The notes under the pieces: generated by a model
Databases searched by the model: none
What the model was told of the DNA's origin: nothing
The model's input: the letters and a program-made list of their open reading frames with translations, nothing else
In this document: one piece after another, positions 5,460-51,795 of the stretch
Layout of the letters: each line of letters opens with the position of its first letter
Numbering within the stretch: the stretch's first letter is position 1
Made by a program: the position numbers and the translations under genes
NCBI GenBank assembly: GCA_963965975.1
Contig: OZ014417.1
Coordinates: 7,250,821-7,314,820, forward strand
Direction of reading: 5' to 3'
Source of the DNA: Xestospongia bergquistia
Taxonomy: Eukaryota > Porifera > Demospongiae > Haplosclerida > Petrosiidae
Length of the DNA stretch: 64,000 nucleotides

Positions 5460-7521
5460 TTAAATTTTCTTATCTTCATCTTGCATAGCCTCTTCATTAG
5501 TGATAATAGTGGGAGACTCTTTAAATTTATCACCTTTATCCATCATAGTAGTAGTAACATAGCGAGGCTCTTCATCAGACTACAAAAAACAGAAGGTAAA
5601 CATGTGAATGCATGTGATGTTACTTCTTAATGATCATTTAGATGAATGTATGCATAGATGAATGGGATAGACAGTACAATTTGGTGGATCATTGACTTCC
5701 TCTAGGTGCAGTCCAAACTTACATCATGCTTTTCCTCAGTGTTATCTTCAATGTTATTGGTATCAGTCAAGTAATTTCCAGAGGTATCCAAACCATACTC
5801 TTCTTGCTGTGATTGAGTGGTCCTAATTCGCACAGCTAGTTCATATTTACCAGTACGACCAGTAATACGACCTAAGAGAGTAAGCCAGATCTCACGAGTG
5901 TCTTCAGTTCGAACCAAAGTTAGAACAAACAGCAAGATAGAGTGGATGATAGCCAAGAAACTAAAAATGTATTGGGTTGCAATTGAGACATCACCAGTAA
6001 TGTTGGCTTGAGTGCCAACTAAAGCAAAGATCCAGATGACATCAAATACAATTAAAAGAATCATTCCAACAAAGAGATGGGTGACAACAGAGTCTTTCCG
6101 GACTTGTTTTTCAGCTGTGGTCATTGATGAAGAATGAGCTAGCACAACAGATATGAGATGGAGTATCAAAGAAAGAACAGTCAATACCGCAATAGGAATG
6201 ACATAGCCATAATAGAATGTAGTCTCCTGAGGTCGGCAGCTGAATAAAAGAAAGAGAGAGAGAGAGATCGATTCCTATAACATCATCTACTAAAACTTAC
6301 AAAGCATTGTCCACAACATAATACTGATGTCCAGCAGCAGCAGAAATGATAACAGCTAGTGTAGAAATAACTGTAAAGGAAAGATAAGCAGTAACAGTAA
6401 CATTAATGGAATCTTTAATGCACTTTACTCACTCAAGTTAGCAATGAGCATGATAGAGAAGTAATAACGTGTAAATGGATTAGATCCAATGCCCATTTTA
6501 AGTTTAACAAAATAGAACAGTGCTTCAGTGAATAAGAACATAAAGTAGACAATACTGAAGAAGTGAAAGAACCCAGAGAATACACCACAGAATCCTATAA
6601 TAAAGGGGAAATTACTATAATCTACTATCAGTAGTTCAGTAAGCCCTAGACTAGTAAACATCAGGACTTACTACAGTGACCTAAGATAGCTACCACTAAT
6701 GTCAGTACATACCAGAGTAGCCTATGATAGTTACAATTAGTAAGCTCTAAATCAACGTGATGTAGTTACTATATAGTACCTGTTATATCAGTAAATGTTG
6801 CTGCAGTGGCAATGATGAACACAACATAGAGAACCAAAAGTATCAGATGAGATGCAATGAAGATACGTCCTTCAGGACAATGACGTTGGGAGCTAGAAGG
6901 ACAAGGCAAATAGATATTACTCTGAAGTTGTGTTTGACCACATGTCTGATAGATGCCATCAGATCATATTAGGACATTATATTATAAATATGCTACTTTG
7001 CTCTATATTTATTGGCATACTATAACAATTTAACTTGATGCTAATGACTATCTTATATTAGATTGGTTGTAGTTCAAACATTTGTTAATATCAGTAATTA
7101 GTAACTTTGTAAGCTTATAACAACAACAACCATGTGATTGATCAATAATTGAGCTAATGAGCCTTATAATAATAGTCATAATAGTATAACTTATTGACTA
7201 TTACTTAGGTCATCAACAGTTACATTAATAGTATAAGAATGTGTACTAGCCCTCAGTTTATTTTAATACTTGTACTTTAACTATCTCTTTTGCTAACTAT
7301 TCTCTCGGTCCTCACAAAATCTACCAATTATTATAAGAATAGACAGTGTTTAATATAACTTACGATGATGCAATGTGACTGATAACTGCCAGGACAATAA
7401 AGATAAGTGACAGACCCAGACCTATAAACAGGATAACTTGAGCTTCATATTCAAGTTCTTCAGTTGGAGGAGGTACTGTTGTGGGTGTAGGTGCGGGTGT
7501 GGGTGTAGCTGTCTCTATATC
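5460..7521 (-). CDS. 7TM domain and cytoplasmic tail exons of gene B
   Basis: Exons 7364-7521 (Thr/Pro-rich stalk plus TM1), 6780-6892 (TM2), 6433-6594 (TM3), 6301-6370 (TM4), 5723-6239 (TM5-TM7 and proximal tail) and 5460-5579 (acidic C-terminal tail). TM2 ends in FTDIT and splices to GFCGVF, which puts the conserved TM3 cysteine after a very short first extracellular loop. The partner cysteine in loop 2 (CRPQE) starts the 5723-6239 exon. TM6 (HLFVGMILLIVFDVIWIF) and TM7 are clear. The order and spacing match class B2 (adhesion) receptors. The tail is rich in Ser, Thr, Glu and Asp and has no domain I recognise. A short open stretch at about 6673-6720 was rejected as an exon because it breaks the frame. 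Confidence 0.88.
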
Positions 7522-10500
7522 CTATGTACAATTGACAAGTTAAATAGACAAATAACATCACAATGTTTTACAGCATATTTGAGGCATTTAAAGTAATATC
7601 TTTGACTATCCATGAACATTAAAGTAGAGAATACTACATGTAATCTAATGTGGGCTATAGTATTAAGAAGATATTCCCTTACCACAATGATAGTAAAACT
7701 TGAGAGATGGTTACATGAACATTGAATAGTTGTGTCACTTGGATTGCTAGTCATAGTACATCCATCAGTGGACCAATCTAAATCTAAATGTGAAAATAAC
7801 AAAAGAAGATTTGTAAATATACAAGAGCAGTGTTTGATTTAAGCAGATATCATCTAGTATCAGTATATCAATACTTACTTGTAATACTCCAATAGACACA
7901 ACGAGGTGTACCAGCAACATTTGTATTTCTTTGGAATGATAACTGAATAGAGTCTGACAAACCAGTGACAGTTATACGAGATCCATTTGAATAGACATCA
8001 GCAGATATGACAACACTAACTGTTTGTACTTGATTGGTAGTATTATCTCGTACATATAAATCACTGTCTGTAAAGACACCAAATGACACACGAGCTGAGG
8101 CAATTGATCTTCCTTGGAACAAAGAGTTTGGCAAAGAGAGAGAGCCACTAGGATTGGAAGAATCTCCCGACAGAGAATCATCATCAAGATCACCATTGCT
8201 ATTCAATTCTACAGAGAAACTAAGTCCAGTGAAGGTAGATACTTGAACTTGTTGAACTTGTAATGCTAGTTTAGGACGAGTAAATGTAACATTATCTCCT
8301 CCTCCAAGATTGACATTAGCTGCAATATTATCAAGGAAGTCCAAAGCTCTGAAAAGAGAATGCAGCACACATCAGGTATTAGATTTGCAGTTAAAAGATT
8401 ACATAAATTCCTTCTATGTGCATACTCACATAACAAACAATGCATGTATCTATAATACTAAACAATACGTGTATCTGTAATGCTAAACAATACATGTATC
8501 TACAATTGTTGGAAAACCATCTTACTTTTGAGGTCCTCCAGTACTTTGTTGACTTCTTTGAAGGGCATCAGAAGGTACATCAAGTAAATTATCAACAGTA
8601 GTCAGTAAATCATCTAATATCTACATGGAATATAGTGTATAATTATAGAGATGTATATGGAGAGGTTCTTAACTTACATCAGGATTATCAAGTGCATCGT
8701 CAGTAAAAGTATCTAGTAGATCAACAGTAATGCCAACATCAACATCACTGAAAGATGCAGCACTTGATGAAATAGTTGATAACTGGTCAGCTGCATCAGA
8801 AGTATTGGCCACCTAAATAAAGCATAAAATGATAATTCCATTTTTATTATCATATTCTCATTTGAGATTTTTTTATGCTATTGTAAATCCTAAAACACAT
8901 AATTATTAGTCTTCTTTAATATCTTTATTCTATTAAAGTTTTTTATTATAATGTTGCATCGATAATCCATTCTCAGGTACTTACATGTCCTCTAAATCCT
9001 ACTCTAACAACCTCAAATCCATTCTCATATAACCTTAATTCCATTCTTAACTTACAGTAGAGAGTTCACAGAGGCTTATGGTAGTAGCATCAAATACACA
9101 CTGAGCAGTATTTGGAGTGGTCCAAATACCAATTGATGTAAAGTCACCAGTACAACTTCGAGTAGCAAATGCACCAAATGCTCTTGTCTGAAAGTAAAAG
9201 AAACAATTCACATGAATAAAGAGGAATAATAAGGAATACTTGGAATACTGTGAACAACTGCGGAATATTACAGATTAAACAATGGAGAAAGGCTTACAAT
9301 GTTTCCACATGGACAAGAGACCTGAACATTCTCTCCAATTCCAACTTCAGGCCATGTAATAGTGATAGATGTACCAGAAAATATCAGTAATGTTTCAGAA
9401 AGGCATCCATCTGTAAAAATTAAAGGATCGACATTGAACCAGTCCATTGTACATATTAGAGTAAAGGTACTAATTAATGTATATATAATACAGTCTGTCC
9501 AGTGAAATCTGTTTGACTAGTACATTATTTTGCCCTTAAGATTCAGAAATTATTAATACTACTGACCAAATCTGGCTACAGGAGAGAAACTGAGAGAAGG
9601 ATTTGATTGAGCCACTTCAGAGAGAATATTGTCAAGACCACCAGTAATTCCACTTGTATCAGCATCAACAGCAACACGCATAGTGAATATAATCTGAAGT
9701 CTACAGTAGAGAAGTTGATTATAGACAAGTCATAACACATATACATTGTCTCTCTCTCTCTTACCTAGGCAATGTTAGAGCACTGATGTTATAAACTATC
9801 ACTCCAGGTGACACTTCTTCATTGAGGAACATATCTCGTGCCTATAAATAAATTTATTCCTTTATAGTACATACAATTTTGATAAATTCATAAAATATTT
9901 CTTGTACTTAATAATAGTTACACATTAGTCTACTAATAATAGAACAACAAAAAATGTGTGAAAAGTATAACTTACTTGTTGTACAGCATCTTCTATTGGA
10001 TTTTGTCTCTTACGACGACTACTTGGATTGATGGTCACTTTAGACAAGTATTGTCTTACATCTAGTATAAAAAAATAAAATAAAATAATGAGGTTAGTAA
10101 TAGTAATAATATAGTAATATTGTATACCAATCCTTCCTTAACAAGCTATACAATATGAAGTTCTTGTCTTAATGAGAGATTTTCTTATAATCCATTTGTA
10201 CCAATCCCAGTATTAGTAAGTAATTGACATACCTTGAATGGTAACTAGAACATTAGAAGACTGAGCAGTCCCTTCAGAGTTTGTTGCACGACATCTGTAT
10301 TGGCCACGATCTTCGGGTGTAACTTTCTCAATAACAAAATAGGGCAAGTTTCGTCCAGTTAAAATTTGTCCTCCTTTAAGCCATTCTATTCTAGGTTGTG
10401 GTGCACCTGTAACTATACAGGTCAAATTGATGAGACTGCCAAGTGTGACATTCTGAGGAGTGGGTGGAGTCACGATAGAGGGTGGTGAATTAACAGTTAC

Positions 10501-13500
10501 TATGATCGAGAGAGAAAAGAAATGTTAAGGGAAAGTGCAAAAGAAGAGTTGCATGTAACGTAGTGTGGTACATTTATGCTATAATCTTGCCAAAACACAC
10601 ATTTATATAATCATCACAACAAAGTAGCTTTTAATTATACATCTGATAGCCAATTGGTACAATAGAACCAGTGTTTTTGTGAAATTGAATTTTTCTGAAA
10701 CCTCCATCAAATTAACATTAAAAAATAATTCTTGCATTGGCAGACAGAAGCAATCACATAAATTACAGTATTGCATGCTGTTAGATATTTTTACCAGGTT
10801 GATCGCAGTTAGTTCCAATAAAGTTAGCAAAACATTCACAATAGTAGCTATTGTCTCCATCAACACAATAACCATTGACACAAGGAGTTTGTTGAGTATT
10901 AGGTGGATTAATGAGACACTCATTACGAACTAACAGAGAAAGAAAAACAATATAATGTATGTTCTTAGAGTGATGAATGATTGTAAGTAATAGCAGTACC
11001 TATATGTACTGATGCAATGTTGAAGGCTGTAACTAATTCTATCTTTAAAATTGCATCTAAATTATATATTAATACAACTACACTTATATAACAACCTTAT
11101 AATAGAATGTTCTCTAGATTAACCGTAAACTTACTTTGTACAGTGACATTGAAGGAATCAGTGATTGAGGGAAGTATGGTGTTAACTGGAGGTACAGGAG
11201 GAGTACGACATCTATACAAACCACCATCTCCTTGAAGTACTTGCTGGATTCTTAGATTGCTAGAGGTAGTGTAGAGGAGTGTAGTTGGGTTTTGTACTGG
11301 GACACCAGTAATGATTTCTACTCCTCCAGATGACACTAAGAGTTCATTGTCTTTGAGCCATGTTACTGTGAGTCCTGGGAAACTATCCATAACAGCACAA
11401 CTGAGAGAAAGTTGGTCTCCTTCAATGAATGCTGATTGAAGGCCTGTTAAGGCAACTGTTGGAGGAACTGGAAGCAAAAAGAAAGAGATCCATTAAATAT
11501 CATTATTTCGGTAAACTTACCAAATACAGTCAGAGTAGACAAACTGGTGTTAGGATCACCTGCAGAGTTATTACCAGTACACTTATAATTTCCACTATTC
11601 TGGAAAGTAACACTTGATATGAACAAAGTTGTGGTGTAACTGTTGTTGCCAATAGAAAGAAGATTGGAGATAGTATACTGTCCACCAGATGTAATAAGTT
11701 GAGAACTGCCATTAAGAGATATAAAATGCCACTGGATTGAAGGAATTGGTTTAGCACGGAAGACACAAGTAAATGAAACATTGGAGTTTTGTAAGACTGT
11801 CACATTCATTGATGGTTGAACTATGGCTGGAGGGACTGAATAGCAAAAAAAGAGTACAAAAATAATTGTGTTGACTTAATAGACACTACTAAGTTGTACC
11901 TAATTCAATCTTTTACTTTATTTAACACAATAAGCAGTATGAACTTAAATAATAATCAAGTAAGACAATAACAATATTAAAAGAGGACATTATAGTCAAA
12001 CATGACTTACTTTGTACTGTCACAGTAAAGGAATCAGAGATTGAGGAAAGTATGGTGTTTACAGGAGGTACAGGAGGAGTACGACAAGTATATATACCTT
12101 CATCTTCTAGACTAACTTGCTGGATTCTTAGATTGCTAGTCGTAGTATAGAGGAGTGTGGTGGGGTTTTGTACAGGAGTACCAGTACTTATTTCAACTCC
12201 TCCAGATGACACTAATGTATTACTGTCTTTGAGCCATGCTATTGAGAGTCCTGGGAAACTATTGATGACTGTACAATTGAGAGAAAGTGAGTTTTCTTCA
12301 TTAGGTGGTACTTGTGGTCCTGTTAGTGTAACAATTGGAGGAACTGCAAGCAAAAAGGCGAGAATGATCAATTAAATATTATCATTCCAATAAATCTTAC
12401 CAAATACAGTCAGAGTGGACAAACTGGTACTAGGATCACCTGCAGAGTTACTACCAGTACACTTATAATTTCCACTATTCTGGAAAGTAACACTTGATAA
12501 GAACAAAGTTGTGGTATAAATGTTGTTGCCAATAGAAAGAAGATTGGAGATAGTATACTGTCCACCAGATGTAATGAGTTGAGAACTGCCATTAAGAGAT
12601 ATAAAATGCCACTGGATTGAGGGCATTGGTTTAGCACGGAAGACACAAGTAAATGAAGCATTGGAGTTTTGTAAAACTGTCACATTAATTGATGGTTGAA
12701 CTATGGCTGGAGGGACTGAATAGCAGAAAAAGAGTACAAAAATAATTGTGTTGACTTAATAGACAATACTAAGTTGTACCTAATTCTATCTTTTACTTTA
12801 TTTAACATAATAAGCAGTATGAACTTAAATAATAATTAAGTAAAACAATAACAATACTAAAAGAAGACATTATAGTCAAACATAACTTACTTTGTACTGT
12901 CACAGTAAAGGAATCAGAGATTGGAGAAAGTATGGTGTTTACAGGAGGAACAGGAGGAGTACGACAAGTATATATACCTTCATCTCCTAGATTAACTTGC
13001 CTGATTCTTAGATTGCTAGTCGTAGTATAGAGGAGTGTGGTGGGGTTTTGTACAGGAGTACTAGTACTGATTTCAAATCTTCCAGATGACACTAATGTAT
13101 TACTGTCTTTGAGCCATGCTATTGAGAGTCCTGGGAAACTATCGGTGACTGTACAATTGAGAGAAAGTGAGTTTTCTTCATTAGGTGGTACTTGTGGTCC
13201 TGTTAGAGTAACAGTTGGAGGAACTGCAAGCAAAAAGAAGATAATGATCAATTAAGTTTCATTATTCCAATAAATCTTACCAAATACAGTTAGAGTGGAC
13301 AAACTGGTACTAGGATCACCTGCAGAGTTACTACCAGTACACTTATAATTTCCACTATTCTGGAAAGTAACACTTGATAAGAACAAAGTTGTGGTATAAC
13401 TGTTGTTGCCAATAGAAAGAAGATTGGAGATAGTATACTGTCCACCAGATGTAATGAGTTGAGAACTCCCATTAAGAGATATAAAATGCCACTGGATTGA

Positions 13501-16500
13501 AGGAATTGGTTTAGCACGGAAGACACATGTAAATGAAGCATTGGAGTTTTGTAAGACTGTCACATTTTTTGATGGTTGAACTATTGCTGGAGGGACTGAA
13601 TAGCAGAAAAAGAGTACAAAAATAATTGTGTTGACTTAATAGACAATACTAAGTTGTACCTAATTCAATCTTTTACTTTATTTAACATAATGAGCAGTAT
13701 GAACTTAAATAATAATCAAGTAAAACAATAACAATACTAAAAGAGGACATTATAGTCAAACATGACTTACTTTGTACTGTCACAGTAAAGGAATCAGAGA
13801 TTGAGGAAAGTATGGTGTTTACAGGAGGAACAGGAGGAGTATGACAAGTATATATACCTTCATCTCCTAGATTAACTTGCTGGATTCTTAGATTGCTAGT
13901 CGTAGTATAGAGGTGTGTGGTGGGGTTTTGTACAGGAGTACTAGTACTGATTTCAACTCCTCCAGATGACACTAATGTATTACTGTCTTTGAGCCATGCT
14001 ATTGAGAGTCCTGGGAAACTATCGGTGACTGTACAATTGAGAGAAAGTGAGTTTTCTTCATTAGGTGGTACTTGTGGTCCTGTTAGAGTAACAGCTGGAG
14101 GAACTGCAAGCAAAAATGGAGAGAATGATAAATTAAATATTATCATTCCTATAAATCTTACCAAATACAGTTAGAGTGGACAAACTGGTACTAGGATCAC
14201 CTGCAGAGTTACTACCAGTACACTTATAATTTCCACTATTCTGGAAAGTAACACTTGATATGAACAAAGTTGTGGTGTAACTGTTGTTGCCAATAGAAAG
14301 AAGATTGGAGATAGTATACTGTCCACCAGATGTAATAAGTTGAGAACTCCCATTAAGAGATATAAAATGCCACTGGATTGAGGGCATTGGTTTAGCACGG
14401 AAGACACAAGTAAATGAAGCATTGGAGTTTTGTAAGACTGTCACATTTTTTGATGGTTGAACTATTGCTGGAGGGACTGAATAGCAGAAAAAGAGTACAA
14501 AAATAATTGTGTTGACTTAATAGACAATACTAAGTTGTACCTAATTCTATCTTTTACTTTATTTAATGTAATAAGCAGGATGAACTTAAATAATAATCAA
14601 GTAAAACAATAACAATATTAAAAGAGGATATTATAGTCAAACATGACTTACTTTGTACTGTCACAGTAAAGGAATCAGAGATTGAGGAAAGTATGGTGTT
14701 TACAGGAGGTACAGGAGGAGTACGACAAGTATATATATCTTCATCTTCTAGACTAACTTGCTGGATTCTTAGATTGCTAGTTGTAGTATAGAGGAGTGTG
14801 GTGGGGTTTTGTACAGGAGTATTAGTACTGATTTCAACTCCTCCAGATGACACTAATGTATTACTGTCTTTGAGCCATGCTATTGAGAGTCCTGGGAAAC
14901 TATCGATGACTGTACAATTGAGAGAAAGTGAGTTTTCTTCATTAGGTGGTACTTGTGGTCCTGTTAGTGTAACAATTGGAGGAACTGCAAGCAAAAAGAA
15001 GATAATGATCAATTAAATATTATCATTCCTATAAATCTTACCAAATACAGTCAGAGTGGACAAACTGGTACTAGGATCACCTGCAGAGTTACTACCAGTA
15101 CACTTATAATTTCCACTATTCTGGAAAGTAACACTTGATATGAACAAAGTTGTGGTGTAACTGTTGTTGCCAATAGAAAGAAGATTGGAGATAGTATACT
15201 GTCCACCAGATGTAATGAGTTGAGAACTGCCATTAAGAGATATAAAATGCCACTGGATTGAGGGCATTGGTTTAGCACGGAAGACACAAATAAATGAAGC
15301 ATTGGAGTTTTGTAAGACTGTCACATTTTTTGATGGTTGAACTATGGCTGGAGGGACTGAATAGCAGAAAAAGAGTACAAAAATAATTGTGTTGACTTAA
15401 TAGACAATACTAAGTTGTACCTAATTCAATCTTTTACTTTATTTAACACAATAAGCAGTATGAACTTAAATAATAATCAAGTAGAACAATAACAATACTT
15501 AAAGAGGACATTATAGTCAAACATGACTTACTTTGTACTGTCACAGTAAAGGAATCAGAGATTGAGGAAAGTATGGTGTTTACAGGAGGTACAGGAGGAG
15601 TACGACAAGTATATATACCTTCATCTCCTAGACTAACTTGCTGGATTCTTAGATTGCTAGTTGTAGTATAGAGGAGTGTGCTGGGGTTTTGTACAGGAGT
15701 ACCAGTACTGATTTCAACTCCTCCAGATGACACTAATGTATTACTGTCTTTGAGCCATGCTATTGAGAGTCCTGGGAAACTATCGGTGACTGTACAATTG
15801 AGAGAAAGTGAGTTTTCTTCATTAGGTGGTACTTGTGGTCCTGTTAGAGTAACAATTGGAGGAACTGCAAGCAAAAATGGAGAGAATGATCAATTAAATA
15901 TTATCATTCCAATAAATCTTACCAAATACAGTCAGAGTGGACAAACTGGTACTAGGATCACCTGCAGAGTTACTACCAGTACACTTATAATTTCCACTAT
16001 TCTGGAAAGTAACACTTGATATGAACAAAGTTGTGGTGTAACTGTTGTTGCCAATAGAAAGAAGATTGGAGATAGTATACTGTCCACCAGATGTAATGAG
16101 TTGAGAACTGCCATTAAGAGATATAAAATGCCACTGGATTGAGGGCATTGGTTTAGCACGGAAGACACAAGTAAATGAAGCATTGGAGTTTTGTAAGACT
16201 GTCACATTCATTGATGGTGGAACTATTGCTGGAGGGACTGAATAGCAGAAAAAGAGTACAAAAATAATTGTGTTGACTTAATAGACAATACTAAGTTGTA
16301 CCTACTTCTATCTTTTACTTTATTTAACACAATAAGCAGTATGAACTTAAATAATAATTAAGTAGAACAATAACAATACTAAAAGAGGACATTATAGTCA
16401 AACATGACTTACTTTGTACTGTCACAGTAAAGGAATCAGAGATTGAGGAAAGTATGGTGTTTACAGGAGGAACAGGAGGAGTACGACAAGTATATATACC

Positions 16501-31900: not shown

Positions 31901-32223
31901 CAAAACCAACTATAAAAGAAAAAGGATAAATAATTAAATGAAGAGATGGTAGACAAGGTTGATGAATAGATGAGTAAATAAATGAAGACAAAGGTGTTAT
32001 CTATTGGTTCAGTTACTTACCATGATGTCTATTATACTGACATATTAGGTTTGCTTCATGGTCAGTGAAACCATTACCACATACTTGACCGTATGCACTG
32101 TTTAAACACAACACAACCTGATAGAAAACACTATATTGAGTAGTCTCATATTGATAGCCAAGATAGTTCAAATTAGGTTGGAATTGTTGACATGGTCGTG
32201 GTACTGAGAGAGAGAGAAAGAGG

Positions 32224-32270
<47 letters not shown>

Positions 32271-33055: not shown

Positions 33056-33087
<32 letters not shown>

Positions 33088-34487: not shown

Positions 34488-34526
<39 letters not shown>

Positions 34527-38661: not shown

Positions 38662-38701
<40 letters not shown>

Positions 38702-39494
38702 ATCCTCCACATTACTAATACAAACTTACAGTTCACACATGTGATAACAGGACTATTAGGAAAGGACTGACAGCCATTGGTACTTGAAGACACCTCACGA
38801 TTACAACTAGAGAGATCATAGTTCAAAACTGGACATGTCAAATTAGATATAACAGTAGTGGCTATACTGTTTACACCAAAGTCAGATGTATTACCAATAA
38901 TAGGATAAGGACGACCACCTATAAAGAGATAAAATTGTTAAATATAAATGTGTGTTTATAATTATATCTATTACTCCAGATATAAATGATATATACATAC
39001 AGTAATCTTATAAATATTATTAATTTAGAGATACTTTTATCTGTCAGTACAGTTTGTAAATCCTCTAGAAATTTTAAATGCATAATAATATAATTAGTTA
39101 TATAAAGTCAATGTCTTCTTTAATTTAATGGAAAAGTCTTCTAATTCTAATCCAATAATTATAATCTGATGTCATTCATTATTTTCTATAACTCAGTTAT
39201 ATAGTATTACTAGACTAAAGAGCTAGTCAGTATCTATATAGTATACTACACTAACCATAATATCCTTGACTAGAGCCACAGAAAGTCACAGTTTCTGTTT
39301 GATTTAAGTCTGTACAGAATGGAGCGTAGCTACCATTTACACATATCTCTGGTCTTCCAATTATAAAAGATGTACTGTTAAAATATGTTCCATAGCCTTG
39401 TTCAGCTAAACGAGTGTTATCAGATGAACAAGAATCTGGTTGAGAAGCTAAAAGCAACAACAACAACAAAGGTAATATGGAGAGAGAGAGAGAG

Positions 39495-39572
<78 letters not shown>

Positions 39573-42500
39573 GGGACTTACCACGATCACAAGTTATAAC
39601 AGCAGGTCCTCCATTATTATCACAACCATTATTATCAATAGTCAAATTATAAAAGCAACTATTATCATTCCAATAGGTTACACCAGAGTTACAGAAAGCA
39701 TTGTACACACCAGTACTAGTATAGTCGTAACGTAATTGATTCCCTTGACCAAACAAAGCATAAGGATAGCCCACATAACTACTGCCTCGAAGAGAGTGAC
39801 AGAGAACATTAGCCAGTTCAGCTGTTAGTCCATCATTACAAAGATCAGTGTAAGTTCTATTAACACAAACTTGAACATTTCCAATTTGATAATAAGTTCT
39901 ATTAGGATATTGTCCATTGACATAGGGAATTGAATAATAGTTGTCACCAAATCTCACACTAGGAGAATAGCATGTGTCTCTGGATACAATTGAAGCTAAA
40001 AGAAATTAAAAATAATTGTTAACCTTTATATTTACAATTCAACCATCTGTTTACTGACCATTCACCTACTAATCTATTTACTTATATATTATTATTCATC
40101 ATCAATTCATCCATACCATCATAACAATAGAGTACAGCACTGTCCATATTGTTAGTACACAATGTATTATTAAACTGGATAGAACAAGATGAAGGATCGG
40201 AATAAGAGTACTGAGGACAAGAGAGATTCAGGTACGTACTAGCATTGCTCATACCACCAGAAGGATTACTAGAGACAATACTACCATCTATAAAGAAAGT
40301 ATCAACATCACTACTTAATAAAATTGTAGATAAGTATATGATATTCCTTTATCAATGATATATTAGAAATGTTTTAATATGCACTTACTTGCATAGCCAA
40401 ATTCTCGGCAAAATATAATGGCATCCCTCTCTGTGATACTTTCACGACAAACTGAGCCCCATTGTCCTGAATCACAAAATTCTATAAAACCATAAGTTCC
40501 TGAAGTGCCATTTTCGTAATAGCTAATAGACGTTTGTGTGAGACGAACTTGACCATAATTTCTGCATTCTGTAATATATAAGATACAATTTGTAATTAAT
40601 AATACAAACTAGTAGTAGTACCAAGTAAATGATAAATGTTTACAATATTAACTAATTATGGTTATTATTGTTAATTTTAGTTATAAACTAATATTCAAAT
40701 TACACAATTTAGGCATTACGTTATATAGAGTCTCATCTCTATAATTATATATAGTATAGATATTACCTCCTGTACAGTTAACTGTTAAAGGTTGAGCAGT
40801 ACATTGTCCCATACTGATAGTTTGATTACAATTGAAAGAAGAGAATCCACCACTCCTGGGATCATTTTGACAGTAATGAAGCACAATATTAAGATTAGAG
40901 TCAGATGAAGAGTATATTGTATTATAAGGGATGATTGTGTAGTCTGAGAGAGAGAGAGAGAGAGAATACTACCAACAACAACAACAATGATATCTTACTC
41001 GAGATATAAGAGCTTTGACTACTGCAGGCTGTACTAGCAAAGTATTCAGAATATGATGTATCACTACAGACATCAACAAAATTGTTATCAATACAAACTA
41101 CAACTCGACCAGTATAGGCAAATGGACCCAGAGGTGAAACATACTCAGAGAAATTAGCTAGAGTAACATAGCTACCACTACATTCAGTATCAGAGGTTCC
41201 TAAAAGATATTAAGACAATGACACGTCCAGTAAATTGACATTAGTCCATCTATCTTGTCTGAAGAACCATTCATCTTTTCCTTTGTTCAACTATTCTATC
41301 AACTCACTTACCCAAACTACTCATTCAATTCATCCATTAAATCATCCAACCATTCATCACTTTATCATCTCTCTTTCTTACTCATCCACCCAATCACCAA
41401 TCCATACAACTATAGCCATTCACTTACTCTCAATACAAGTCAGTACAGACTCATAACCATATGAACTACATCCTCCATTACCCATTGTATAGTTACATCC
41501 ACTAATGTCATTAGCTTCAGGAGAACAAACAATATTTGTTATTACTTCATTTTCATATACATAATAGTCTGAGGGCTTTCCAATATGTTGACCCCAAAGA
41601 ACTCGATAATTACCTATATATAATAGAATTATATATTATATACAATAGTTATGAGAACATTAATGTTAATAGTGAACCGAAAACAGATTATGATCATCTA
41701 CAATATTAGTTAATGATTTTTATTCATTCTAAGGAAGGAATACATAATATTGATGACAACATAAATTTGCCACCTGAGTGGAGACAACATAGTGTAATAC
41801 ACATTATGTATAAATGATATCACTAGTATTAGGTATAGTATCTGATAAAGTTTGTCTTATATGTTAAACAAATTCTATTCAACTCACTAGAAACAGCATT
41901 CTTACAAACGCCATCCAAAGCCTCAATGTCTGGTAGGGAACCTCCTGTAGTATTCAATCCTTGGTTACATACTTGATAGAAAGTATCATTGACACAGACC
42001 TCTACACGACCAGTTCGTATTGAAGTACCATTGGGAAATGAGAAAGTACTAGTGTTACGAAGAGTAAAGAGACCAGCACAAGCTGGAGTAACTAAGAAAA
42101 GAAGATATATGATAAGAAGAATTGGTGATGAATAAAATTAAACTTTGAAAAAAAAATTTTGAATGTTAAACCTTAACTATAAAGGAGAACCAAAAGTTAT
42201 GATCTCTTTCTTTCTCTCTCTCTCTCTCTCTTCCTGTCTCTTCCTCTCTACTTCTTATGTAAATATCTTTATCTTACTTCGAGTACAAGTGGCATAGATG
42301 GTAGAATATTGAGAAGTACATGAGCTGTTAGTAGTATTTGTAGTAGTACTGATATTACACATTGGTAGAAGAGAATAGTTAGATGGACAATTAATGGAGT
42401 CAATGATAGGACCAATATTTGATCTAGATCTTGTATAATAGGATGATCCATCTAGAAAAAGGAACAAAGAAGATAATTAATTTGACATACAATATAAGAG

Positions 42501-45500
42501 CAAATAATAATATAAGATTATATATCAGTATAGATTGATTTATAAAATAAATATAATCATATATAATATAATTATGTTCCTAGATGTACCAATCAAAGTT
42601 AAAAACATATTTATTTAAATATCAATGCCATTAAACATTACATTATTGACGCCAATACTTAACTTTCACAATAACAAATTATACATATGTAACGTATCAT
42701 ACATGATATATAATGTATATACTATATTGTACATATATTTGTACATACATATAGTCTATATACTACAATATTTATTTATAAAAATAATATGATGTCTAGT
42801 TCTTACTGTAATAGTTCAGTTGATGACAGGTAGCATTTACTACAGCAGTAGCATTGAGATTGGCATCACTGTGACCACAGACATAATGATATTCATTGTT
42901 ATAACAGACCTGGAGATAACCATAAATTCTTTGGACACGTCCACGGTAATCAATATTGGAGTTGGTATAGTTGAAAAAAAGTCTGACATCTCCATTAGTA
43001 CAGATTGGAACAGGTATGACTATAAGGATAATAAATATGACATTAGAATAAATAGGTTTGTTGCTATTTACTATATTTGTTTGACTGCATGCAAACACAC
43101 AGACACACATTCTTTCTCTCTCTCTCTCTCAATCTTTTACCTCGTTCACATTGAATGTATAGGGTAGCATTATGAGTACTACAGAGACCATCAGTAGTTG
43201 TGTTAATAGAACAATCAGAGAAGGAGTTAACATTCATAGGACAATTAATGGTATCAATAATAGGATTATTTTGTGATAAAGAAATAGAATAGTGAGTATA
43301 GCCAGCTGGGATAGAAAAGAGAAATTATAAATTATATTTTGTAACTAAACTTATACATCCCAAACTTAAAGTTATACTTTAAAAAGTGCAGAAAGATCTG
43401 TTTATTAAAATTAAATAATTGAGTTGGACTAACAATAAACCTTCATCCAATTATTAAACAATAATTTATCAACATAAATCAATAATGTACATTTACTCTC
43501 TATAATACAGTAACATTGTTAAGTATATAACTTACAGCTATAACCTAAGAGTTGACAGGCACTCTGCGTTATATTATTTAGATCATAGTTGATTTCACTC
43601 TGAGCAGCACACACAAAACGATATCGATCATCAGTACATATTTGAAGATATCCATTAATATACTCAACAAGTCCACGAGAATCAGTATAGTTAGAAGTAG
43701 AATTGACAAAAAGTTGAATTTGACCATCACTACATGTTTCTATAGCTAAAGAAAGTGATAAAATGTGACTCTTTGTGATTTAATATGTCTAACAATGATA
43801 AAATATGACATGATACATTATGTCTTATATATTACTCATTATGACCTATTATGACACAATAGTCATTATGATTATGACTCATAATGACATATATCATAAA
43901 CATATAATACTTACAGTTAAGACATATTATAGAAGCCACATAATCATGAGAAGTACATTCTCCAGTATTTGTAATACCAATACTACAAGAGGATAGACTA
44001 GTAGCAGATTGTGGACAAGAGATAGTGTCAATAATAGTGCCTGGAGAATATAGTCCACTGTTTGGAATAATGTCAGAACCTAACAAAGAGAGAATAATAC
44101 TATTAATATCTAAGACATTATATATAGTCATGATTTGTACACATTAACAAAAAAATATAACAAAATATATATGCAATGATAATAATAGCATTTCCAATTT
44201 TCCATGTACATAGGATAAATAACAACACTAACATTATTAATAATAGGAAGAGTACACTTACCATCTCTATATCCCAAGTCAGTACAAACAATTTGTGCAA
44301 TTGTATAATCAATAGAAGCAAAAGTATTATTAGCACAGATACTGTAGTATGTTCCATTATAACACACTTGTAGGTAACCACCAAAGCCTTGATATGGAAA
44401 GCCATCACTAGGAGGAAATGATTGTTGATATTGTATTCTGTACTGGCCATTGTAGGAGCATTCAGGAGTAGGGGTAGGTGGAGTAGTTGAAACTAAGAGA
44501 GAGAGAGAGAGAAAGAGAGAGAGACAGAGAGACAGAGACAGAGACAGAGACAGAGAGACAGAGACAGAGACAGAGAGACAGAGACAGAGAGTGAGAGAGA
44601 GAGGGAAAGAATCAATTATTCACATATTTATACTCTCACTTACTACTTGTACAAGAGATAACGGCATCACCACCATAACTATTACAGCTATCAGTACTAA
44701 CAACCATGGCAGTAGCAAAGTTACATGAATAGTATTCAGTACAGTTCAAGGAAATAAGGACTTGTTGAGCATTTGTAGAGTTTCCATACATATCTCTAGA
44801 ACCACCAATAGGATAAGTGTAGATAAATCGATCTATGGTAAGAAATGAAATAATAAAAGTAACTAATAATGTCATATTATAATGATATTACAATGAACTG
44901 CTTTACTAGTTAACTGTTGTTATATGTATGTAATGTACAATTAATACCATTCTTGTTAATTTCCTTTACTATAATAGCTAGATATACTACAGTATATATA
45001 TCAGTAATATTTACTGCTGTATCCATATGAATTGTAGCAGATATATTCAGCTAATGTTTGGTCCAGAGCATCATTACACACTGGAGTATAGACATTGTTG
45101 ATACACACTTCAACATGACCCACAACAACATGGCTACCATTGTTGAAATATCCAGAGCCAGTGTTAACTAATCTAGTTTGAGTCCCAAAACATTGATATG
45201 GTTCTGTAGAGTAAGAAATTAAAGTCAATAAAAATAGTTTCATTTACATTTTAAACTGCACATGAAAAATATGGACTCTATGAATTTGTATAAGATAAAC
45301 TTTAAAGATACAATCTTTCTTCTTAATCCTTCTTACCTTGTCGACATGTGACTATACCTGCTCCATCATAATTTTCACAGCCATTACCAGTTTGATATAA
45401 ACTCTTACAGACACCAAGATTGGAAGCATTCATTGGACAAATATAGTTATATACACCATTAGTGGTCAGAAGAGGAAAGTAATCAACTGCTTCATAGCCA

Positions 45501-48500
45501 AACAGTGAATAGTTATAAGCTCCTCCAAGATAATTGACTCCACTACATATATCCATAGCTTCAGATGAATGTAATATATTTGAACAGATAGCTGCATAAG
45601 TGTAGTTTGGAGTACAATATAAAGGATAACCAATGTGATATTGAGTGCCATTGGAATAGGAGATTGTTGCTTGATCGTTTAGGGACACTGATTGACTTGA
45701 GTAACAGTTATTGTCAACTGAGAGAAAGAGAGAGAGGAACAAAAATTAACCTAAAATTGTTTTGGAAGATATTGACTTTACAATGAAACATTGACTAGAA
45801 CTACAAGATAAGATATTTAGTAGCAGTGTCTGAGGAAGGCTAATAGCTTTAGGGTGCTAGAAATATAAGCAGAGAAGCAAGCTAGTAAAAAGCTTCAGCC
45901 ACATTCAGTCACACCCATCGCTGTAGTGCTCCTGGTTAGCATTAATGAAATTTATTTAAGTTCATTTGTCATGTAAACAATATAATATGATCCAAAACAA
46001 TTATAAGATCACCAAGAACTAACATCATACATCAGAAAAACAAAGAGCTATATAGCTACTGTGTCCATGACACAATATTAATACATTATGGTACATAAGT
46101 ATAATACTAATACATTATGGTACATATAAATAATACTAAAACATTATGGTACATACATATAATACTAATACATTATGGTACATACATATAACACTAATAC
46201 ATTATGGTACATACATATAATACTAATACATTATGGTACATACATATAATATTAATACATTATGGTACATACATATAATACTAATACATTATGGTACATA
46301 TAAATAATACTAATACATTAAGGTACATACATATAATACTAATACATTATGGTACATACATATAATATTAATACATTATGGTACATATAAATAATACTAA
46401 TACATTATGGTACATACATATAATACTAATACATTATGGTACATACATATAATACTAATACATTATGGTACATACATATAATATTAATACATTATGGTAC
46501 ATACATATAATACTAATACATTATGGTACATATAAATAATACTAATACATTATGGTACATACATATAATACTAATACATTATGGTACATACATATAATAC
46601 TAATACATTATGGTACATACATATAACACTAATACATTATGGTACATATAAATAATACTAATACATTATGGTACATACATATAATACTAATACATTATGG
46701 TACATACATATAATACTAATACATTATGGTACATACATATAATATCAATACATTATGGTACATATATACAATACCAATATATTATGGTACATATAACACT
46801 AATACATTATGGTATATACATATAATGCCATACCTGCAACACATTGTATGATAGCATCAAATTGATGTGAGGTACACGATGGATCATCAGTAAAATTGTA
46901 AGAACAATCACTGAAGGAATAGAAGTATGAAGGACAGCTGACATCAATCAAGACTTGGTCAGCATTGCTACTACCATATGAAGAATCATATTTAAAGAGT
47001 GTACCACCTTAAAGAAGAGAAATATATAGTAAAACTCTGTGCATCCTAGTAAAACAAAGCAAGTACTAATGGTACATTAATTAAATTCAGTAAAATCAGT
47101 AAAACATAGTTAAACAAATTATATAAGTCAGTATACTAAAAGTGATGCTTACCAGTGTAGCCAAGACCAGAACATGTAGCTTGAATACCCATTAGAACTG
47201 AGTGTGTCAAATTACTACTATTATAACATATAGAAGACCACTCTCCATTAACACACACTTCAAAAATACCAGCAATAGCTAGCGTACCATTATTTAATTG
47301 ATAGGTATTGTAGTTCCAAATCCTTGCATCACCTTCAGTACATACTGTGTTAAAAAGGAGGAAAATGAAGGGAGAAAGAGAAAGGAAGGGAATAAAAAAA
47401 GAGAGGGAAGGAGGGAGGAGGGAGGAGAAAAGAAGGGAATAAAAAAGAGAGAGGGAAGGAGGGAGTGAGAGAGAAGGAGGGAGTAAGAGAAGGAGGGAGG
47501 GAGAAGGGAAAAGGGAGAGAGCAATATTATATGTACAAGAAGATCAAAGTACTTTTACCTTCTCTACATTGCACAATGACTGGTGTACCACTGCAAGTAT
47601 TGGAGATATTATAAGTACAAGATCCTAAGTAGCCATATGGACAGTCTATGTTCCTGGCATAGAGTCCACTAGAATTGCTACCATAAAGATCGCTATTCCA
47701 GGGAATAATTGTTGCATTACCTAAGTTAATAGGATAGAAAAACATGCTAATTGGTATCTACACACAATTGAAGTGTATGAGTCAAAATTTTACGTGGTTA
47801 TCTATACAAACTTTAATACAATGTTCCTATATACTTGATAGTTACAGGGAAGAACATGATGGTAGACATTGTATTTAATATTGCTAATGTACAAAATATA
47901 CAACAGAAATGTATGTAATGGAATGTTTATAATGTAAACAAAAGATAAATACTTAAAATATCATTTCTATGGAAATTCTATATTATCCATTAATCTCACT
48001 GTTTCTGTAGCCAGCATTATTGCAGGCAAGTGTAGTTAACTGTGTGACATTCAAGCTATCACTGCAGATATCAACATATTGCCCATTATTGTCACAAGCT
48101 TCAAGTCTGAATGTTGTAGTTCGTCTTACAGCATACTTCATAGTAATTTGATAAGATCTTTGGAAATTACCACGGATGCATCGTTGCTCTATTAAGAGAC
48201 AGACAGAGAGAATGTTATTATAGCTATAACTTGGAATGGTAATTGTGTGTTACTAACCATTAATACATGTGACAACTCCATTAAATCCACTAGAACAGGA
48301 ACTAGATACATTGTATAAACATTGACTGTCAAAGTCAGTGATGTTAACAGGACAAGCAATACTAGTGAATACTATATTATAAGTATAGTTTGTTAAGTTA
48401 TAATCTTGGAATTGACCAAACCCAGGAAATGGTAATCCACCACCTATAGAGAGAATATTGAATATTTTAAATCATCTTAGCAATAGAGTCATCTTCTATG

Positions 48501-49863
48501 GAAACATTGTAATTATAAAAGTTAATTCAAGGGGAATCTAGTTTTATACACAGTGGATAATGTACCATTGTATCCAGAGCAGAAGTAATCGACATGTTTT
48601 TGAGTGATGGCAGACAAACAGATTGGTCGATAGATGTTGTTATAACAGACTTGAGGTATAGCCACATTGAGTGAGCCTCCATTGGGCAAATTAAAGTGTG
48701 TGTTGTTAGCAAGTCTGTAGTCACCATCATTAATACAGTAGTATGGGTTTGCAACAACTAGAGAGAAAAAATAATGAGAGGAGAGCTAAGTGTACAACAC
48801 TGCGTAGTCTCCTAGCCTATAAACAATACTGTTTAACAATGTTTAACTTCAATGATAGCCAAGAGGCTAGATCCCTTGGCCGCCAATGCCCCTACACAAG
48901 TACTTAATTATATTGTATTATCTATTCCCTTACATCTTCTGCATGCTAGATACGCATCACCATTAATGTCACATGTACTAGTATCATCCACATCAATGTT
49001 ACACAAGTTTAAGCTTGAGTACCTATAGGTACAATTGATGTAATTAATGATAACAGAATCATCACGAAATCCATAACTTGGTTGCCATATGGCTCCATCT
49101 GTGTATGAGCATGTATATACATGCACAAATGTGTGCATGTGTGTGTATGTAAGAGAGAGATTAAAAGACAAAGAGAGACAGAGAAAAAGATAATTGATTA
49201 TTGAAATATTAGCAATCTACTAAACATAAAAAAGGTAGTGTCGTATGTACAATTCTATTTTACTGTCAAAGCCTGTCATTACATGAATGTTCTAATCTAA
49301 TAAGAGATATATTGTATATTACATGCACTTTAATGCTAACTTAAGTTTATATAAATAACATGTATTAATTTTAGGGATTTTCATTAATACAAGATAAGGG
49401 TTAAATTTTGTACAATACAAGCTAAAAGTTCATTTCATAGATTAGAATGGACATGCCTCAGGAGTCAATAAAATAAATTATTAGAGGGTCTACATGTACA
49501 AGATCTGATAGATTTAAAAAGCTTGAAATCAATTAAACTATAATGTAATATACAGTGAACTCTAGTCACTTACCATAATAGCCTAGATCTCTGCAGGCTC
49601 TTTCAGCTACATAATCATCAATATAAACATCAGTACCATTCAAACACACATTAATAAATGTGTTGTTATAGCACAACTGAAGTGTACCAAAAACAAGTTC
49701 ATATGAACCATTTAGTCCAACAACTTCGTTCCTTGTTTGGCGATTCTTCAAGTTAACTTGTCCTTTATAACTGCAATAACTTTGTGAGTTTACTAGTAGG
49801 ACATAACTAGTTAACAATAGAGCTATGAGGTTAATCACTAATGAACCCTTCATGATGAAAGAG
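5460..49863 (-). CDS. giant SRCR-Ig-EGF-HormR-GAIN adhesion GPCR (gene B)
   Basis: A single exon chain runs from a signal-peptide exon (ATG at 49851-49853) to a stop at 5460. I delimited 114 coding exons by AG/GT sites. All phases fit, and the lengths sum by hand to 23511 nt, giving 7836 residues plus stop. Domain order: signal peptide, 42 SRCR, Ig, 14 Ig in seven tandem pairs, a 19-residue orphan exon, EGF, Ig, an unassigned segment with an RRKR site, HormR-like, GAIN/GPS, 7TM and a roughly 55-residue tail. Extracellular exons are nearly all phase 1-1. Between 17 and 49 kb no exon carries a second signal peptide, stop or UTR signature, which argues for one gene. Adhesion GPCRs are known to self-cleave at the GPS and signal through G proteins; the ligand here is unknown. 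Transcript data could still split or shorten the model. The component exons are described in the block entries. Confidence 0.8.
7683..8812 (-). CDS. GAIN domain and GPS cleavage motif exons of gene B
   Basis: Exons 8678-8812, 8526-8620, 7879-8348 and 7683-7783. The first two encode a helical, Ser/Asp-rich segment typical of GAIN subdomain A. The 470-nt exon encodes the beta-rich part and ends in RCVYWSIT. The last supplies the rest of the GPS, with DWSTDGC and CSCNHLSSF. The two tryptophans, four cysteines and the H-L-S cleavage tripeptide fit a GPS competent for autoproteolysis between Leu and Ser. That would leave a short tethered agonist beginning SSFTIIV before TM1. Cleavage itself is inferred from the motif. 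Confidence 0.88.
9056..9410 (-). CDS. HormR-like domain exons of gene B
   Basis: Exons 9298-9410 and 9056-9187 encode a segment with an early GC, a W-P motif, SCPCGN, then ATRSC, IWTTP and two more cysteines. The spacing (Trp, Gly, Cys-Pro, Arg-x-Cys, Trp, Cys) is that of the hormone-receptor (HormR) domain that often precedes GAIN in adhesion GPCRs. A degenerate sushi-type fold is the alternative. The exon junction is phase 0, unlike the phase-1 exons of the upstream ectodomain. Confidence 0.6.
9567..10061 (-). CDS. unassigned ectodomain segment with furin-like site, gene B
   Basis: Exons 9976-10061, 9765-9841 and 9567-9700 encode about 98 residues between the last Ig and the HormR-like domain. 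The first exon contains SSRRKRQ, a good furin-type site. The rest alternates hydrophobic strands (VIVYNISALTLP, IIFTMRVAV) with a helix-like stretch. A SEA-like fold is possible but not demonstrated. Phases 1-0, 0-2 and 2-1 fit the neighbours. I do not recognise a specific family. Confidence 0.6.
10233..10499 (-). CDS. membrane-proximal Ig domain exon of gene B
   Basis: One phase 1-1 exon encodes a complete I-set type Ig domain: NLTCIV (B-strand Cys), IEWLKGG (core Trp), then EDRGQYRCRATNSEG (F-strand D-x-G-x-Y-x-C). It is more canonical than the 14 tandem Ig domains and clearly not a recent copy of them. It lies between the EGF exon and the furin-site segment. Confidence 0.85.
10795..10929 (-). 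CDS. EGF-like domain exon of gene B
   Basis: A 135-nt phase 1-1 exon with six cysteines spaced as in EGF: NEC, then TPCVNGYC, then YYCECFANFIGTNC. The final G-T-N-C ending is typical. It appears to be the only EGF module in the window. Its strongly preserved pattern supports the splice chain here. Confidence 0.85.
11000..11056 (-). CDS. 57-nt orphan exon of gene B
   Basis: A small phase 1-1 exon (AG acceptor at 11057-11058, GT donor at 10998-10999) adds 19 residues (AILKIELVTAF and following) between the last tandem Ig domain and the EGF exon. It is not part of a known domain that I recognise. Skipping it would preserve the frame, so it could be an alternative exon. Confidence is lower because of its length. 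Confidence 0.5.
11135..17118 (-). repeat. seven tandem 880-bp units, each two Ig exons (14 Ig domains)
   Basis: Each unit holds an Ig-A exon of 333 nt and an Ig-B exon of 315 nt, both phase 1-1. Ig-A: 11135-11467, 12011-12343, 12891-13223, 13771-14103, 14652-14984, 15532-15864, 16413-16745. Ig-B: 11521-11835, 12401-12715, 13281-13595, 14162-14476, 15042-15356, 15923-16237, 16804-17118. Ig-A has LNCTV, IAWLKD and IYTCRT; Ig-B has FTCVFRAKP, IQWHF and NYKCTG. Units 2-7 differ by only a few residues and their introns are almost as similar, so the array is recent or homogenised. Unit 1 (11135-11835) is the most diverged: its Ig-A has GLTVTWLKDNE and DGGLYRC. The outermost Ig-B (16804-17118) also carries private changes. 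Because of the near identity, copy number in the assembly could be wrong. Confidence 0.88.
17255..17638 (-). CDS. Ig domain exon linking SRCR and Ig arrays, gene B
   Basis: A 384-nt phase 1-1 exon encodes an Ig-like domain: LSLTCTAYF, then IGWYRNGQ, then SDAGEYICMIN. It has an inserted loop with two extra cysteines (ACYYNGSQYVC), probably a second disulfide. It is longer than and distinct from the tandem Ig exons. It marks the switch from SRCR to Ig modules. Confidence 0.8.
17986..22203 (-). CDS. SRCR block V of gene B (six SRCR domains)
   Basis: N-half/C-half exon pairs in transcript order: 21997-22203/21729-21902, 21454-21660/21066-21239, 20721-20906/20457-20639, 20245-20397/19966-20187, 19564-19743/18705-18887, 18424-18591/17986-18162. 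All are phase 1-1 and multiples of three. The 18424-18591 exon is the most canonical SRCR half in the gene (VEFCYFGEWRTICG). In the pair at 20 kb the intron sits earlier than usual, so the second exon also carries the end of the N half (NRVCGQSYIGFPYPIFGD). These six domains are mutually divergent and so older than the neighbouring blocks. The exons have many N-x-S/T sequons, as expected for a secreted ectodomain. Confidence 0.8.
19125..19520. repeat. 36-bp minisatellite in a gene B intron
   Basis: About ten tandem copies of a 36-bp AT-rich unit (containing TTACTATTAATTACCTAT) fill most of the intron between exons 18705-18887 and 19564-19743. The period is a multiple of three and the plus strand is open across it, giving a meaningless 12-residue repeat. 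Confidence 0.85.
22471..30064 (-). CDS. SRCR block IV of gene B: five copies of a two-domain unit
   Basis: Ten SRCR domains as N/C exon pairs in transcript order: 29870-30064/29278-29445, 28976-29146/28675-28854, 28298-28495/27638-27805, 27326-27502/26913-27095, 26383-26571/25860-26027, 25535-25711/25262-25438, 24958-25149/24555-24722, 24246-24419/23940-24119, 23418-23612/23056-23223, 22743-22919/22471-22647. Two domain types alternate. Type alpha has C-Y/S-P-G ... TGTPTVCVNG then GF.GTPSGV ... GGGYAAITC. Type beta has DC.(D/E)G ... YNNYTTVVDG then LPSNSSLYGR ... CYTGELDFV.QC. The real repeat unit is therefore four exons of 1.1-1.7 kb, present five times. All exons are phase 1-1. Confidence 0.85.
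26624..26796. repeat. 58-bp direct repeat in intron
   Basis: About three tandem copies of a 58-bp unit containing ACTCTGAAATCAGAGAC, itself a short near-palindrome, in the intron between exons 26383-26571 and 26913-27095. No coding role is apparent. Confidence 0.7.
30269..36531 (-). CDS. SRCR block III of gene B (nine domains, duplication copy 1)
   Basis: Exons in transcript order (N half/C half): 36319-36531/35811-35984, 35441-35644/34981-35166, 34557-34751/34311-34487, 33942-34121/33661-33834, single-exon domain 33128-33541, 32832-33023/32301-32489, 32021-32203/31736-31909, 31295-31483/30791-30973, 30537-30713/30269-30454. The last four exons are a diverged version of the two-domain alpha/beta unit of block IV. 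The 33128-33541 exon holds a whole SRCR domain with no central intron. The 33942-34121 half is fairly canonical (FIEFCDSGRWGSVC). All exons are multiples of three and phase 1-1. Confidence 0.82.
36764..43019 (-). CDS. SRCR block II of gene B (nine domains, duplication copy 2)
   Basis: Same order as block III: 42807-43019/42278-42451, 41888-42091/41428-41613, 40999-41199/40767-40943, 40389-40568/40117-40287, single-exon domain 39582-39995, 39256-39447/38730-38918, 38478-38660/38194-38367, 37791-37979/37286-37468, 37032-37208/36764-36949. Most exons differ from copy 1 by one to four residues. The 39582-39995, 40117-40287 and 40389-40568 exons differ much more. 40999-41199 has two extra codons and 40117-40287 one fewer than its counterpart. 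Confidence 0.82.
43141..49098 (-). CDS. SRCR block I of gene B (N-terminal domains)
   Basis: After the signal-peptide exon, in transcript order: 48934-49098 (C half of domain 1), 48566-48757/48258-48443, 48000-48188/47559-47720, 47153-47344/46834-47007, single-exon domain 45337-45717, 45015-45203/44644-44832, 44262-44492/43915-44079, 43536-43745/43141-43305. The domains are divergent but keep the SRCR cysteine pattern and hallmarks such as VCVNGEWSSIC. The 44262-44492 exon begins with a Ser/Thr/Pro-rich linker. The C half at 43141-43305 is the one whose relative survives, cut short, in gene A. Confidence 0.8.
46070..46825. repeat. roughly 30-bp minisatellite in a gene B intron
   Basis: About 25 tandem copies of TACTAATACATTATGGTACATACATATAA-like units, in two length variants (TACATACATATAA and TACATATAAATAA endings), fill most of the 1.1-kb intron between exons 45337-45717 and 46834-47007, the longest intron inside the SRCR region. 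Confidence 0.85.
47350..47520. repeat. purine-rich GGGA/GAAGG tract in intron
   Basis: A strongly strand-asymmetric purine run on the plus strand (AGGGAGGGA and AAGGGAATAAA variants), hence pyrimidine-rich on the transcribed strand. It lies upstream of the acceptor of exon 47153-47344 in gene B, so it may serve as an extended polypyrimidine tract. Confidence 0.6.
49574..49863 (-). CDS. first coding exon of gene B: signal peptide and SRCR N half
   Basis: The exon starts after a CT-rich acceptor (AG at 49864-49865) and has a 10-nt leader before ATG at 49851-49853. The N terminus is MKGSLVINLIALLL and continues hydrophobic to about residue 20, with likely cleavage after V-N-S. The first SRCR half follows, with LQLCYNNTFINVC and the D-L-G-Y-Y-G end found in other N-half exons. 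The short leader in this exon implies an upstream non-coding exon, which is found at 51677. Confidence 0.85.
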
Positions 49864-51589: not shown

Positions 51590-51676
51590 AAATAGTGAGC
51601 AATAGCCTGCAACAATATTACCAATCTGAGTTGCATACATTAAATGAAAGTAAAGTTGTAACTGTATCATACTTAC
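49864..51676 (-). other. first intron of gene B, no gene seen
   Basis: The 1.8-kb stretch between the leader exon and the ATG exon. The part next to the acceptor is a GA/GACA microsatellite on the plus strand (about 49866-49945). A long (TA)n run lies at about 51530-51585. Short ORFs at 50025 and 50809 have no features of real genes. Confidence 0.55.
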
Positions 51677-51795
51677 TTTTGATGCTTGCTAAACCGAGCA
51701 GATCCGTCTCGTTAGCAGCATTGAAGGGTGAAGGGTGGAGAAGCTACACTTCTTTTATAATAATTAGTTTCGTCTAGCTCCTCCCACTTTAGTTG
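51677..51795 (-). promoter_or_regulatory. leader exon and core promoter of gene B
   Basis: A non-coding exon ends at 51677 before the donor GTAAGT on the minus strand. TATAAAAG lies at 51752-51759 (minus), which puts the likely start near 51720-51730. A GC-rich GTGGGAGGAGCTA motif lies just upstream (about 51774-51787). The same arrangement with diverged sequence is present at 3021-3166, which supports it as a real promoter. Start and exon length are inferred. Confidence 0.55.

Follow-up and report, generated by a model that had tools for sequence, protein, structure and literature searches.

A minus-strand chain of 113 exons encoding a predicted adhesion receptor

The window analysed here is a 64,000-nucleotide stretch of the genome of the sponge Xestospongia bergquistia (contig OZ014417.1, called C7 below, 7250821-7314820; genome 146 Mb in 21 contigs), and its main feature is a gene for a very large predicted adhesion G-protein-coupled receptor (GPCR). 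An earlier sequence-only reading had described an in-phase chain of 114 exons leading from a signal peptide to GAIN/GPS and seven-transmembrane (7TM) regions, with 42 scavenger receptor cysteine-rich (SRCR) and 16 immunoglobulin (Ig) domains in about 7,800 residues. The exons were modelled with a semi-Markov gene finder; its initial training material was a generic splice consensus plus the reading frames that recur within the window, and it was then retrained. The resulting minus-strand chain has 113 coding exons, running from an ATG at 49853 to a TAA at 5460 (window positions), and encodes 7,835 residues with no internal stop. In order, these comprise a signal peptide, 42 SRCR domains, 15 Ig domains, one EGF-like domain, one further Ig domain, a furin-like RRKR site, GAIN/GPS, 7TM and a short tail. 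The in-phase chain, the domain numbers and the approximate size are thus borne out, with one coding exon fewer than was proposed. Introns 1-97 are phase 1 throughout, and intron length has a median of 159 bp and a maximum of 1,116 bp. Much of the two longest introns is occupied by minisatellites, at 46074-46826 (29 bp x 26) and 19130-19522 (36 bp x 11).

At default penalties the finder overshot the gene on both sides, with a 95-bp exon added at the 5' end and, past a 3.6-kb intron, SRCR relics at the other. The model was cut back manually, so that it begins with the signal-peptide ATG (49853) and finishes where a well-formed last exon has its first in-frame stop codon (5460). The join that the finder made to the SRCR pieces at 56-1886 was rejected, these being relics between the window gene and a neighbouring copy, P2; they are SRCR half-domain exons lying 3' of the gene, some of them fused or with cysteines lost. 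The sequence-only reading had placed the start at 51795. The coding start is instead 49853, and blastn found nothing shared with the neighbouring copy P4 beyond ~40 bp upstream of the ATG; this comparison covered 2.2 kb upstream of the P4 ATG, and a distant 5' non-coding exon would fall outside that scope.

The SRCR array

Exons 1-81 (17986-49853, minus strand, as are all parts of the gene) encode the 42 SRCR domains, 39 of which are split over two exons and three of which occupy a single exon. Exon 1 (49574-49853) holds the start codon, a signal peptide with a hydrophobic stretch at residues 3-21 and the first half of SRCR 1. All 42 domains have the same eight invariant cysteines, and domain 28 carries a ninth. 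Pfam SRCR matched 30 domains at E<0.01. A leave-one-out hidden Markov model (HMM), whose training set excluded the domain under test and its relatives of at least 50% identity, scored 39-91 bits in 42/42 domains, compared to a best score of 9.4 among shuffled sequences (50 per domain). Searched against the PDB, the SRCR profile matched CD163, CD5-like, CD6, MARCO and DMBT1.

Alignment with CD163 domains 1-3 revealed non-cysteines at the group B C1 and C4 positions. Two extra cysteines are present, one after the GRVEV-like strand and the other at the domain start, outside the aligned part. The domains have eight cysteines and yet do not belong to group B, since C1 and C4 are absent and two other cysteines are present. 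Sponge SRCR domains of group C are described, in the relevant passages of PMC10855680, as having six shared cysteines and one novel C1, and this C1 may correspond to one of the extra pair seen here.

Within the array, 30140-43117 is a tandem duplication, detected by self-comparison. Its two blocks, 30140-36629 and 36639-43117, are 92.1% identical in DNA and correspond to exons 16-32 and 33-49, with nine SRCR domains each. The ratio of non-synonymous to synonymous divergence (dN/dS) between the blocks was 0.52, with exons matched by best score rather than by order, which can lower divergence.

The Ig, EGF-like, GAIN/GPS and 7TM regions

The Ig region (10233-17638) comprises exons 82-96 and 98, and Pfam Ig families matched 16/16 of these exons at E<0.001. 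Self-comparison resolved exons 83-96 into seven two-Ig units with a spacing of ~880 bp and a DNA likeness of 86-95%. The EGF-like domain, before the last Ig, is encoded by exon 97 (10795-10929) and was recognised by eye from its cysteine pattern, with weak Pfam EGF matches under the cut-off. Exon 99 (9976-10061) encodes the furin-like RRKR at residue 7024, which is conserved in two neighbouring copies, P1 and P4.

Exons 100-107 (7683-9841) encode a HormR-like stretch and a GAIN domain ending in the GPS. GPS scored 49-51 bits (cut-off 22.5), as in adhesion GPCRs (class B2), and HRM 19-20 bits, under its cut-off of 26.2. Exon 107 (7683-7783) contains HL^SS at residue 7448, followed by a tethered-agonist-like start, SSFTIIV; H-X-S/T is given as the adhesion GPCR cleavage motif in the pertinent text of PMC13062082. 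Exons 108-112 (5723-7521) encode seven transmembrane segments with a 7tm_2 score of 34.4 bits (cut-off 20.6), indicating a 7TM region of the secretin/adhesion type. Hydropathy analysis placed 11 segments above threshold: one at residues 3-21, seven at residues 7485-7733 and three borderline ones within SRCR domains, which score 1.62-1.84, about equal to the third transmembrane segment (1.79). Among solved structures, GAIN and 7TM aligned in one stretch of ~500 residues with ADGRG6 (E 4.2e-25) and ADGRG2 (E 1.3e-24), and were also alignable with ADGRL3 chains. The last exon, 113 (5460-5579), encodes the intracellular tail and the stop TAA, and its protein is identical in P1 and P2.

Tandem paralogues with arrays of different length

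C7 holds four tandem GAIN-7TM copies, P1, P2, P3 (the window gene) and P4. P4 (7317085-7342633, 25.5 kb) is a complete relative with a signal peptide, 23 SRCR domains, three Ig domains, EGF, Ig, GAIN/GPS and 7TM, and its exon phases equal those of P3 except at one spurious small P4 exon. P1 runs from a first exon at 7218912 to a stop at 7190746 and has 12 Ig domains and 19 modelled SRCR domains; 23 SRCR domains are expected, with the first exons placed in a stretch outside the modelled sequence. The whole P3 order is repeated in P1 over 64 matched exons. P2 (7234643-7241526) is a 5'-truncated copy without a signal-peptide exon. We also observed that 10,453 bp are common to window positions 2017-12469 and C7:7231200-7241652, 21.6 kb apart and 99.99% identical; this pair could be a very recent duplication of the 3' part of the gene or a false assembly duplication.

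Counterparts of exon 1 were found on C7 at 7342349-7342633 (87%), 7218628-7218912 (83%) and 7185079-7185357 (76%). A signal-peptide exon thus lies upstream of each of P1, P3 and P4, and a search with exon 1 found no second exon of this type inside any of the three. The exon at 7185079-7185357, the fourth of its kind, possibly marks a further member of the cluster. Compared with P4, the window gene corresponds to a P4-like gene with the internal 6.5-kb duplication (nine SRCR domains), ten more SRCR domains and six extra Ig pairs. The intron between the SRCR and Ig regions is 347, 348 and 352 bp long in the three full copies, and junctions and phases are the same in P1 and P4.

Two exons were left out of the paralogue comparison: a 16-bp one that the finder had placed first in P1, and a spurious one in P4 (the 1/65 with no partner). 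Non-zero differences in exon length were divisible by three in 4/4 cases against P1 and in 11/12 against P4, where the exception reflects donor choice next to the spurious exon, whose own pairing is counted among the 11. The dN/dS ratio was 0.45 against P4 (4,132 codons) and 0.46 against P1 (4,489 codons), and stayed below 0.6 in each segment: for P4/P3, 0.43 (SRCR), 0.50 (Ig/EGF), 0.37 (GAIN) and 0.51 (7TM and tail), and for P1/P3, 0.54, 0.32, 0.31 and 0.05, respectively. Judged from the aligned coding sequences, the gene is shown to be under purifying selection.

One gene or several products

Since P4 and P1 repeat the order and phases, each has its own signal-peptide exon and none lies internally, we conclude that the predicted product, a giant adhesion GPCR of class B2, very probably comes from one gene. 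The repeated order thereby supports the earlier proposal of a single gene of this architecture and size. Several observations weigh against it. When start and end penalties in the finder were set to 0/0 the gene fell into six pieces, and at +3/+3 into many more, although at both settings dozens of spurious tiny genes were also invented elsewhere. On a larger region, penalties of -4/-2 gave a single 114-exon gene (7256280-7302279) and -10/-6 a single 122-exon gene reaching into the downstream relics. In addition, 12/42 SRCR domains miss the Pfam threshold of E 0.01, and a structure prediction for one single-exon SRCR domain from a three-row input failed, with a predicted local distance difference test (pLDDT) score of 31. 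Finally, the intron that precedes exon 81 contains a start-like frame (18163-18241, minus strand), a possible alternative start that reads from 18241 into exon 81 and has kept 34/34 residues in P1 and P4.

All exon joins were computed from sequence and the finder splits the locus when starts and ends are free, so a secreted SRCR/Ig gene and a separate adhesion GPCR gene might have been falsely joined by exon chaining. We consider this very unlikely, as the junctions, the phases and similar intron sizes are common to P1 and P4, the longest intron measures only 1,116 bp and no other signal-peptide exon of that type lies inside the gene. An internal promoter together with a signal peptide is what the sequence-only reading had named as a sign of separate genes; no exon-1-type exon was found within the gene, and the start-like frame at 18241 is conserved in P1 and P4. 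Genes of this kind often have alternative isoforms, and the conservation of this frame in P1, P3 and P4 lends some weight to a locus with several products, in which a shorter form from ~18241 (carrying the Ig array, GAIN and 7TM) would accompany the full-length receptor, or early polyadenylation would yield a soluble SRCR-Ig protein. We regard this as a real but lesser possibility. Start-like candidates are no denser in introns (eight, at five distinct places, in 19,964 bases) than in intergenic DNA (13 in 12 kb), a rough control, as frames there have no following exon to enter. In introns, seven of the eight frames continue directly into the exon that follows, and the acceptor tract at such a boundary can resemble a hydrophobic peptide. 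Six candidates were rechecked, the remaining two being versions of two of these that begin three bases further in, and of the six only 18241 is open in both P1 and P4. A protein from 18241 would begin in the middle of an SRCR domain, leaving half a domain. P3 and P4 share 96.5% identity across the surrounding intron, compared to a median of 93.2% for 35 introns, five of them above 96.5% (7/42 pairs were dropped for lengths differing by more than 120 bp). Because the whole intron is conserved and the protein would start mid-SRCR, we think that the 18241 frame is an acceptor-tract mimic.

The near-identity of P2 to window positions 2017-12469 raises the question of whether misassembly accounts for part of the copy numbers. 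This is improbable, as the repeats within the gene differ by 5-14% in DNA with a dS of 0.05-0.07, above what a doubled stretch of one haplotype would give, and P4 has different array numbers of its own. Degeneration into a pseudogene, which the truncated state of the adjoining P2 might bring to mind, is scarcely credible for 7,835 codons without a stop or frameshift and with a dN/dS of ~0.45.

SRCR and GPS domains elsewhere in the genome

At least 145 GPS matches were found genome-wide, many of them clustered (on contigs C2, C3, C4, C5, C7 and C15), revealing a very large adhesion GPCR set. At least 10 of the 145 have an SRCR match on the same strand no more than 6 kb upstream, compared to 0/145 in each of the other three placements, which suggests that SRCR before GPS is a recurring design in this genome. 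Within 10 kb of a GPS match, SRCR matches were upstream on the same strand in 12 cases, downstream on the same strand in none, upstream on the opposite strand in none and downstream on the opposite strand in three. These counts are lower bounds, because part of the candidates was scored (150 of 4,312 SRCR and 150 of 166 GPS candidates, with 150 of 163 SRCR matches listed) and split SRCR exons of the window type were missed. Outside the receptor gene, the window contains a single-exon protein kinase frame at 60824-61801 on the plus strand (Pkinase 193 bits). It sits in a block repeated at 94% identity, at 59614-62038 and at 63306-65820, the latter extending past the window end.

A possible mechanism and its meaning

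The predicted N-terminal fragment, from the signal peptide through GAIN, would comprise ~7,450 residues and end at an intact HL^S GPS, followed by 7TM and a short tail. By analogy with established adhesion GPCR biology, GAIN would cleave itself at HL^S, with both parts staying together. The SRCR domains, held distally by a long Ig spacer, might recognise ligands carried by microbes, matrix or other cells, and such binding or pulling would uncover the tethered agonist SSFTIIV... and trigger a G protein. The RRKR site could permit additional trimming or shedding of the array. Unequal exchange among phase-1 exons could add or remove domains without loss of frame, and this frame-preserving exchange would account for the unequal SRCR and Ig numbers of adjacent paralogues.

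If made as one protein, the product would join a G-protein receptor directly to a series of immune-type modules. The nearest functional hint comes from Pita et al. 2018 (PMC6208332), in which, according to the pertinent passages, sponge SRCR and GPCR genes responded to microbial patterns; these are other genes than the one in the window. A role in allorecognition, as suggested by the sequence-only reading, is speculation, and one in microbe sensing is likewise hypothetical. It is a long shot that the cluster serves recognition and is being remodelled rapidly, so that SRCR and Ig numbers vary by unequal exchange between paralogues, and presumably between individuals, giving each animal its own set of giant G-protein-signalling receptors for self/non-self or microbe recognition. 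With its varied array size and conserved junctions, the cluster offers a natural system for relating ectodomain length and module number to signalling, and is suited to asking whether such receptors act in recognition in early-branching animals.

Comparison with known receptors

The sequence-only reading knew of no described receptor with this architecture and scale. As to the kind of receptor this does not hold, since adhesion GPCRs with SRCR domains have been published from Amphimedon and amphioxus; the scale, the long Ig array and the variation in array length do appear to be new. No report of an SRCR adhesion GPCR of this scale was found in the open-access literature (subscription papers not covered), and the words SRCR and scavenger have 0 occurrences in the main text of a 2025 choanoflagellate GPCR survey (PMC12716839). 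The receptor kind itself is thus already known and this copy is unusually large; as far as our searches go, the scale, the SRCR-Ig-EGF-Ig-GAIN order and the array-length variation among paralogues are new here.

In Amphimedon queenslandica, two adhesion GPCRs with multiple SRCR repeats, Aq712029 and Aq715659, are described in the relevant passages of Krishnan et al. 2014 (PMC4302439), as are sponge adhesion GPCRs with Ig, EGF, HRM and GPS domains. Both resemble the window gene in joining multiple SRCR domains to an adhesion GPCR, a comparison by description only, in a text that gives no repeat number. A survey of amphioxus GPCRs (PMC2246102) likewise reports SRCR domains within adhesion GPCR N-termini, as here; this is a chordate, and the pertinent part of the survey mentions no large array. 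In the sea star Acanthaster, 7tm_2 is among the domains tabulated for SRCR proteins in the relevant section of PMC10855680. CD163/M130 and other SRCR arrays, the best solved-structure matches to the SRCR profile, share the SRCR family with the window gene, whose domains in contrast lack the group B C1 and C4 and have two other cysteines. Those arrays are single-pass or secreted proteins. ADGRG6 and ADGRG2, the best solved-structure matches to the window GAIN-7TM, have unrelated and far shorter ectodomains, that of ADGRG6 having CUB and pentraxin domains.

A counterpart in scale is ADGRV1/VLGR1, termed the largest adhesion GPCR in the relevant passage of a 2026 review (PMC13197933). Like the window gene, it carries a very long repetitive ectodomain on GAIN-7TM. 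The repeats of ADGRV1 are Calx-beta (and EAR) instead of SRCR and Ig, and the human protein has ~6,300 residues. Neither of these repeats of the ADGRV1 type gave a Pfam match in the 42 SRCR domains, the 16 Ig domains or the Ig-EGF-Ig-GAIN-7TM end of the window gene. Set against the size of ADGRV1, the 7,835-residue receptor, if made as one protein, would probably rank among the largest GPCRs known.

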